Assembly: GCA_946902875.1 (NCBI GenBank)
Contig: OX336343.1
Span: 2,022,754 to 2,086,753, forward strand
Direction: 5' to 3'
DNA: 64,000 nt
From: Nematopogon swammerdamellus
Lineage: Eukaryota > Arthropoda > Insecta > Lepidoptera > Adelidae
Positions 50,401 to 53,400 of this stretch are shown here, piece by piece (within the stretch, counting starts at the first letter, position 1; each line of letters begins with the position of its first letter). The translations under genes and the position numbers were made by a program. Under the pieces are notes generated by a model that was not told where the DNA came from, ran no database searches, and was given only the letters and a program-made list of their open reading frames with translations.

Positions 50401-53400
50401 AAAAAAAAAAATTTTGACTTTCTTTTGGTTGGCCTCGGTAGCACAGTGGTGCGATCTGTTGACTGTCGTTCGTGATTATAAGCACACCTGGGCGCGGTCA
50501 GAACTTGGATGGGTGACCGCTCGACCGTTGGAGGCTGACCGTGGATTCCTTACCTTACTAGTTGGTAGGATTTAACCCGCCCGAGTTGGTGAATAAAACA
50601 TAAATATTATCTAAATAATATATTCGGTGATAATGATATAAACAATAAATTTTTTTTTCATTTCGTCATAGTATAATAAAACATTTATAATGATTGATGG
50701 TACCGCACCGCACTGAATGAAAGGTCGGTAGAAAACAACAAAGTAAATAGTTCATGTTTTCCATACAGTTTAATGCAGCCGGCACGACCAAAGGGAAGCA
50801 CTGCTATGGCACTTAGTTCACCAAGGTGTAATGGGCTGAGTATCACGGATGCTTTAGGTGATGTAGCGAACCGTGTCAGTTTCCTTAAAACCGGCCAAGT
50901 GCGAGTCGAACTCGAGGCGCACCAAGGGTTCCGTATCGCCATGTCATAATTGTTTATGAAATGCTTCATATTATTAGTTAAATGTCATGATTAGTTAAAA
51001 TGCTTCATAGTCTATTCGGTAGATGGCGCGCGCGCATACAACTTTTTGGTTTCTTCTATGGGAACCCCCATGAATTTTTAACTTTTCATTATTTTTATTA
51101 TTTGTTGTCATATCGGCCATAATAACACATATTCTGTGAAAATTTCAACGGGCTACCTATTACGGTTCAAGACATACAGCCCTTGGACAGACAGACGGCT
51201 TAGGCTTAGTAATAGGGTCCCGTACCGGACACGGAACCCTCATCATCATCATCAGCCTGTATCGGTCCACTGCTGGACATAGGCCTCTCCCAAGGCACGT
51301 CACCACACGCGGTTTTTCGCTCTTCTCATCCGATCCACTCCCGGCTACCTTTTTTAGGTCATCTGTCCACCTAGCCGGGGGGCGCCCCACGCTACGTTTG
51401 CGTTACGGAACCATAAAAAAGAAAAATTTTCAAACAATGCAACAACGTCTAGTCGCACCTCAGTCCGTCGTCCAGCTTGTCCTCTGACTTGGCGCGCGCG
51501 AGCGACGCTCGCCGCCGGAACTTGCCCGGCTTGGAGGCGCCCGCGGCGCCGCCGCCGCCGCTCGCCTTGCTGCGCGCGGCGGGCGCCCCGCTCTCCGCGG
51601 AGCCGGGGCTGCCGCCGCTGCACGCGCGGTTCACACGTCTGCACGCAGGTGAGCCATTTTAAACATGCGGCTGCGGGTGGCCGAGTGGTTTGGGCAACGG
51701 CCTCTCATGCGAGAGGTCCGAGGTTCAAATCCGGTCGGCGTGTACCAATGAGTTTTTTCTGAAGAAAAAATTTACGTGCATTCCTACACCTGCTGCTTCA
51801 CCGTTCGGAACAGGTATAAAACTGTAGGTCCCTTCCCTTGCACCTTACTAGGTGGTAGGCTCAAATTGTGGCCGACAATTGGAGGCTTCCTCCTGGAGGT
51901 GCCGCGGCCGGCGCCGCCCAGCTTGAGCGCGGTGGTGCTCACGATGTGCGCGTGCACCACGCTCAGCGCTATCATCAGCGCCAGCGGCACCAGCACGCTG
52001 TCGCACTGCTGACAATGCATGCATACCTGAAGTAGCTCGGCAGCTTCCTCCTGGAGGCGCCGCGGCCGGCGCCGCCCAGCTTGAGCGCGGTGGTGCTCAC
52101 GATGTGCGCGTGCACCACGCTCAGCGCTATCATCAGCGCCAGCGGCACCAGCACGCTGTCGCACTGCTGACAATGCATGCATACCTGAAGTAGCTCGGCA
52201 GCTTCCTCCTGGAGGCGCCGCGGCCGGCGCCGCCCAGCTTGAGCGCGGTGGTGCTCACGATGTGCGCGTGCACCACGCTCAGGGATATCATCAGCGCCAG
52301 TGGCACCAGCACGCTGTCGCACTGCTGACAATGCATGCATACCTGAAGTAGCTCGGCAGCTTCCTCCTGGAGGTGCAGCGGCCGGCGCCGCCCAGCTTGA
52401 ACGCGGTGGTGCTCACGATGTGCGCGTGCACCACGCTCAGCGCTATCATCAGCGCCAGCGGCACCAGCACGCTGTCGCACTGCTGACAATGCATGCATAC
52501 CTGAAGTAGCTCGGCAGCTTCCTCCTGGAGGTGCCGCGGCCGGCGCCGCCCAGCTTGAGCGCGGTGGTGCTCACGATGTGCGCGTGCACCACGCTCAGCG
52601 CTATCATCAGCGCCAGCGGCACCAGCACGCTGTCGCTCTGCTGACAATTCATGCATACCTGAAGTAGCTCGGCAGCTTCCTCCTGGAGGTGCCACGGCCG
52701 GCGCCGCCCAGCTTGAGCGCGGTGGTGCTCACGATGTGCGCGTGTACCACGCTCAGGGATATCATCAGCGCCAGCGGCACCAGCACGCTGTCGCACTGCT
52801 GACAATGCATGCATACCTGAAGTAGCTCGGCAGCTTCCTCCTGGAGGTGCCGCGGCCGGCGCCGCCCAGCTTGAGCGCGGTGGTGCTCACGATGTGCGCG
52901 TGCACCACGCTCAGCGCTATCATCAGCGCCAGCGGCACCAGCACGCTGTCGCACTGCTGACAATGCATACCATACCATCACGCTGTGGCCCCACAATCGG
53001 GGACGGGCAGAGTAAGATATAGTTAATGTAAATAGGCAGAGTGGACAGATTCTTGAGTATTCATGTTTAAATGCTGTAAATATTAATGTTCTTTTGCAGC
53101 GGTAGTATGGGTTAATTAGTTTTTTTTTTTATGAAAAGCACGACATATGGCGCGCGTCAAACTAACGCAGAGGTGTAGTCCGACGGCGCCCATGGGCATT
53201 CGGATATTGACGGGGGCTGCGAATACCATGTCGGCCGGCTAGGTGCGCCTTCACATTATGTTTGAAGGATCCTTTCCTCTAATATACAGTCTGGGACTGT
53301 ACATTAGAGGAAAGGATGCAGGTGGGAGTGAATTCCACATGTTGGCAACCCTGTAAATACATGTTACTATAATACAGTACTTATAAGGTACTAACAAAAC

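Follow-up and report, generated by a model that had tools for sequence, protein, structure and literature searches.

Tandem exon copies spanning exon/intron boundaries in a PHTF gene and a LUC7-family neighbour of Nematopogon swammerdamellus

The window analysed here is a 64 000-nucleotide stretch of the genome of Nematopogon swammerdamellus (assembly GCA_946902875.1, contig OX336343.1), which contains a PHTF gene on the reverse strand and a LUC7-family gene on the forward strand (Table 1). Joining the 13 PHTF exons, with the first copy taken wherever an exon is repeated, yields a frame of 922 amino acids that is open to the stop codon; the model begins at exon 1 and the start codon lies further upstream, outside the model. 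The exon 2 peptide matches PF12129, the PHTF1/2 N-terminal domain, with 56.4 bits against a cut-off of 25 (E = 3.8e-15), exon 3 alone scores 17.9 bits, which is under the same cut-off, and the five remaining PHTF peptides that were submitted gave no PF12129 match. A protein search returned 198 matches among 7987 scored candidates; within the best 120 of the 198, named lepidopteran proteins with at least 97% query coverage show 50–60% identity. In a tree of 44 sequences (the window protein and 43 of the 120 listed matches), the window PHTF groups with Lepidoptera beside the relative P0049 with a support of 0.70, at a distance of 0.50 from the common node. We set aside a pseudogene reading because the 922-residue frame is open and this branch length is inside the lepidopteran range (0.31–0.61). 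The domain on exon 2 and the whole-length homology to lepidopteran PHTF agree with the original prediction that the amplified exon belongs to PHTF. Between exons 2 and 3, an open frame of 142 residues (53602–54030, reverse strand) resembles by eye the end of a retroelement protein.

Table 1. Features of the PHTF and LUC7-family genes in the window
Feature	Positions	Strand	Evidence
PHTF gene model, exons 1–13	38333–56416	-	Joined frame, PF12129, lepidopteran PHTF matches
Exon 1 (56268–56416) and upstream 25-bp array resembling its acceptor	56268–56992	-	
First copy of exon 3 (140 nt, or 137 nt via the second AG of tcagcag)	52817–52956	-	
Five more complete exon 3 copies and one truncated copy, 18-nt spacers	51885–52816	-	
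Cut dispersed repeat, SINE-like by eye	51670–51876	+	93% identity to 24357–24563 over 207 nt
Exon 6 (48395–48512) and five partial copies, four reaching the donor, spacers of ~80 nt	47620–48512	-	
Exon 8 (45857–46038) plus three donor-containing copies of its last 157 nt	45362–46038	-	
Exon 12 (39523–39765) and three copies of its last 96–107 nt with donor, 16-nt spacers	39179–39765	-	
Exon 13 (38333–38482), last codons and stop opening a 3' minisatellite	36742–38482	-	
LUC7-family exon (20949–21167) plus two partial copies that each extend to the donor	20949–21777	+	PF03194, E = 3.7e-17
Second LUC7-family exon (22424–22636) and one partial copy past the donor	22424–22729	+	

The exon 3 array was delimited by TRF to 51885–52976, with a period of 158 bp, 6.9 copies, 97% matches and 0% indels. 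The complete copies begin, on the reverse strand, at 52956, 52798, 52640, 52482, 52324 and 52166, and the seventh begins at 52008, matches copy 1 for 124 nt as far as 51885 and is separated by eight bases from the cut SINE-like repeat. TRF and BLAST thus agree with the seven copies (six complete), the 158-bp period and the 18-nt spacers that had been described, and shift the left edge of the array from the predicted 51891 to 51885. The spacer following a complete copy is GTATGCATGCATTGTCAG in five of the six cases and GTATGCATGAATTGTCAG, one base different, after copy 2. The six complete copies are mutually distinct. Their products carry the A/S and T/A exchanges that underlie the previously noted MIALS/MISLS and GTS/GAS variants, together with C to S in copy 3 and L to F and G to C in copy 4. 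A change of GCG to TCC is common to copies 2 and 5 and A109G to copies 5 and 6, which suggests that several units may have been copied together or converted. The predicted 140-nt exon is open; since the acceptor reads tcagcag, a 137-nt form is open as well (6/6) and is closer to the length in relatives. Translation across the array has no relatives at E = 0.001. The segment is single-copy in the 30 relatives shown in the alignment, and five motifs never occur twice in one protein among the 120 listed matches, in which unused copies would be invisible. The duplication had been attributed to microhomology between the two ends of the exon. The word GTATGCAT is indeed present at both ends; this explanation is only partly borne out because simple exchange between these words predicts a spacer of 14 nt rather than the real 18 nt and because the 3' flank that the exon originally had is no longer present. 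Rfam and ARAGORN place one tRNA in the window, at 36.3 kb, distant from this array.

Each complete exon 3 copy, used singly, gives the full open frame (6/6), whereas all ten non-adjacent pairs, which were the pairs examined, stop at residue 177. By exon lengths and with the junction codon counted, this residue is codon 12 of the second copy, where a TGA had been anticipated. Read-through ending at donors 2–6 stops at residue 183 in all five cases, and skipping exon 3 altogether leads to a stop at residue 186. Pieces of 16 and 18 nt, the spacer lengths of exons 12 and 3, are too short for introns. The 18-nt spacers, which had further been proposed to enforce exclusivity, do not do so on their own: joining copy i to copy i+2 leaves 176 nt between them, only joins between neighbours are blocked by the spacer, and the early stop would be the sole penalty. 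Copies 2–7 have no yTnAy within 60 nt upstream and an AG at -20; for copy 1, yTnAy lies at -60 and the AG at -28. However, yTnAy is likewise absent between -60 and -15 in five of the 17 acceptors taken as real, close AGs occur in several of the 17, and the upstream pyrimidine content of the copies (0.50–0.55) is not lower than that of copy 1 (0.45). The acceptor evidence is therefore not decisive, and the scores do not set copy 1 clearly apart from the others.

The original prediction left the arrays at other PHTF exons unmentioned. The extra copies at exons 6, 8 and 12 are all 5'-truncated exons, and those of exons 6 and 8 differ by substitutions and indels. A reading of the exon 6 array as a transposable repeat was rejected, because both the frame of the joined exons and an alignment with relatives identify it as an exon. 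A copy of exon 8 or exon 12 used singly keeps the frame (3/3 each), and single copies of exon 6 stop early (3/3). At exons 6 and 8, an early stop follows from one added copy (3/3 each) and equally from read-through to donor 2. At exon 12, the frame remains open with one copy added (3/3), and read-through to donor 2 encounters no stop. A motif common to exon 12 and its 3' flank, CAGATC[A/G]ACCTG, may be either the microhomology that seeded the array or a decayed fifth copy, and we therefore do not lean on it. The minisatellite of exon 13 (21/42 bp, 36742–38240) begins in the last codons and stop. In the 25-bp array at exon 1 (56491–56992), every unit contains CAG-GTATG and the unit agrees with the exon 1 acceptor at 17 of 25 positions, compared with 7–13 for the other 12 acceptors. 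The resemblance is weak evidence of an acceptor-side array, which may be an exception to the one-sidedness described below.

Extra copies detected by BLAST are present at six of 17 exons (13 from PHTF and four from the LUC7-family gene, the latter with boundaries set by eye), excluding self-matches within a fourth LUC7 exon, which are a coding repeat. They total 20 (6, 5, 3, 3, 2 and 1 per exon); 20 of 20 lie 3' of the full exon and 17 reach its 3' end, and in five of the six copied exons the exon's beginning is held by the 5'-most copy only. The copy of the second LUC7 exon corresponds to exon positions 49–115 and ends short of a donor. Tandem copies span the exon/intron boundary at PHTF exons 3, 6, 8 and 12, and likewise at one LUC7 exon. 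For the four PHTF arrays, to which the placement test was confined, units that all contain a donor would arise by uniform random placement with P = 9e-5, and with P = 0.0002–0.0017 over five GC thresholds when the extra copies are masked and only GC-rich stretches are open to placement. The one-sidedness of the arrays (5/5) has P = 0.06. Both tests were framed post hoc on one window. The introns on either side of the copied LUC7 exon also contain a 21-bp minisatellite (21201–22211).

Exon 3 copies vary at five nonsynonymous and four synonymous sites, with P = 0.21–0.49 for a shortage of nonsynonymous changes, and their divergence is no lower than that of the spacers (9/140 versus 1/18 sites). 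Pooled over five arrays, nine of 19 differences are nonsynonymous against an expected 63–75% (P = 0.01–0.13 depending on the model). These classes were counted by hand and exclude a difference in the truncated exon 6 copy, a base at the exon 8 junction, a 12-nt deletion in one exon 8 copy, and the second LUC7 exon. Exonic and spacer variability were compared for exons 3, 6 and 12 and the LUC7 exon. Exonic parts are less variable in exon 6 (2/78 versus 13/83 sites, P = 0.005) and in the LUC7 exon (3/133 versus 27/175 sites, P = 6e-5), where the spacer is itself a minisatellite and the contrast is therefore not clean; in exons 3 and 12 the exonic parts are not less variable than the spacers. Such signs of constraint could reflect either real use or a turnover in which copies pass in turn through the working position.

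In amphioxus, minisatellites known as mirages occupy exon/intron boundaries and are reported to leave regular splicing undisturbed (PMC3087553, PMC3902484). Repeats at splice sites are also described for PGBD5, with Adh and TnC cited (PMC3902484). The anatomy of the PHTF arrays fits that of mirages: head-to-tail units that span a boundary, contain splice signals and occur in several, mostly near-alike copies. The unit lengths reported for BflGb6 (150–160 bp) and BflGb9 (157 bp) are comparable to the 158-bp period of exon 3. The PHTF case differs in its insect host, in affecting several exons of one gene and in the repetition of exon 3 as a whole with both splice sites. Moreover, the amphioxus arrays are reported to vary in copy number from haplotype to haplotype and to be spliced normally, while the PHTF arrays are known from the sequence of one haplotype. 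To date, such boundary repeats have been named in lancelets, and we found no insect case of mirages in the open-licence literature searched.

We consider it probable that the PHTF and LUC7 arrays are mirage-like boundary minisatellites in which the first copies are spliced and the later ones are passengers. In such arrays, short matching sequences would have mediated the original tandem duplication, and unequal exchange or conversion would have enlarged the array and kept its units alike. Within each array, splicing would use the first acceptor together with the first donor and remove the later copies with the intron, so that a normal protein would be made. An intact first copy would allow donor-side arrays to persist, and the copies behind it may decay or disappear. 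We favor this reading because the 922-residue frame is open with the first copies, all 20 extra copies are on the 3' side, all four PHTF units contain a donor, the exon 3 copies show no sign of constraint and the anatomy is mirage-like. Against it stand the copies of exons 3, 8 and 12 that are singly in frame, the pooled hint of constraint, the lower exonic variability at exon 6 and the LUC7 exon, and acceptor evidence that is weak. An argument that the open frame alone excludes use of the copies was dropped after the frame tests.

In mutually exclusive exon clusters of the Dscam type, tandem copies of one exon are frame-compatible singly and out of frame in pairs. Exon 3 resembles them in that its copies are singly in frame (6/6) and the tested pairs stop early (10/10), and it might thus be a nascent cluster in which each transcript includes one copy, encoding a variant of one membrane segment. 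The single-copy frames of exons 8 and 12 (3/3 each) and the pooled hint of constraint (9/19 nonsynonymous) point in the same direction. We nevertheless regard such a cluster as unlikely: exon 3 itself shows no constraint signal, single exon 6 copies stop early (3/3), the spacer length leaves joining of i to i+2 unblocked, and copies 2–7 have the motif-poor acceptors described above, although some presumed real acceptors are no better. The exon 3 copies also depart from Dscam-type clusters in being near-identical, in their 18-nt spacers and in including a truncated copy without a donor, and PHTF has sister arrays of 5'-truncated copies. It is similarly doubtful that PHTF chooses among copies at exons 3, 8 and 12 to give isoforms of a conserved membrane protein, with selection keeping the copies readable; the pooled shortfall of protein-changing differences and the lower exonic variability at two arrays would be in line with it. 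Between the two alternatives offered by the original prediction, a nascent exclusive cluster or a neutral expansion, the latter is the better fit because the like arrays at exons 6, 8 and 12 consist of 5'-truncated extra copies; the cluster, though frame-compatible, is unsupported.

An assembly or sequencing artefact, with fewer or single copies in the true genome, seems quite improbable, as the six complete exon 3 copies are all distinct, the copies of exons 6 and 8 carry substitutions and indels, similar arrays occur at separate places and the window contains no N runs. Highly improbable, in our assessment, is a poison or decoy function, in which later donors or double inclusion would cause early stops and tune the level of PHTF through nonsense-mediated decay. 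Early stops do follow from read-through to donors 2–6 and from all ten pairs at exon 3, and at exons 6 and 8 from an added copy (3/3 each) or read-through to donor 2, but at exon 12 the frame stays open with an added copy (3/3) and read-through to donor 2 meets no stop.

If the arrays are real, boundary-spanning exon arrays extend beyond lancelets, and one insect gene would hold several natural contests between near-identical donors, one of them involving whole exons. Which copy the spliceosome takes would then be a test of splice-site choice among equals, and of whether new introns and alternative exons can grow out of such arrays. In the lepidopterans Heliconius hecale, H. elevatus and H. 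pardalinus, exons are described as present in raised copy number and as bearing signs of constraint, with a stop codon in 10–14% of exon copies and expression that increases with copy number (PMC8290116). Whole and partial, tandem and dispersed copies were indistinguishable to the authors, and the likeness to PHTF lies in the order and in the raised number of exon copies. The gain of introns when AG/GT sites are duplicated in tandem, a process cited in PMC3087553, resembles the PHTF arrays in producing GT...AG sequence between coding copies; the PHTF spacers of 16 and 18 nt differ in being below intron size. The exon 3 spacers (52799–52816 and the others) also contain a perfect 10-bp palindrome, ATGCATGCAT.
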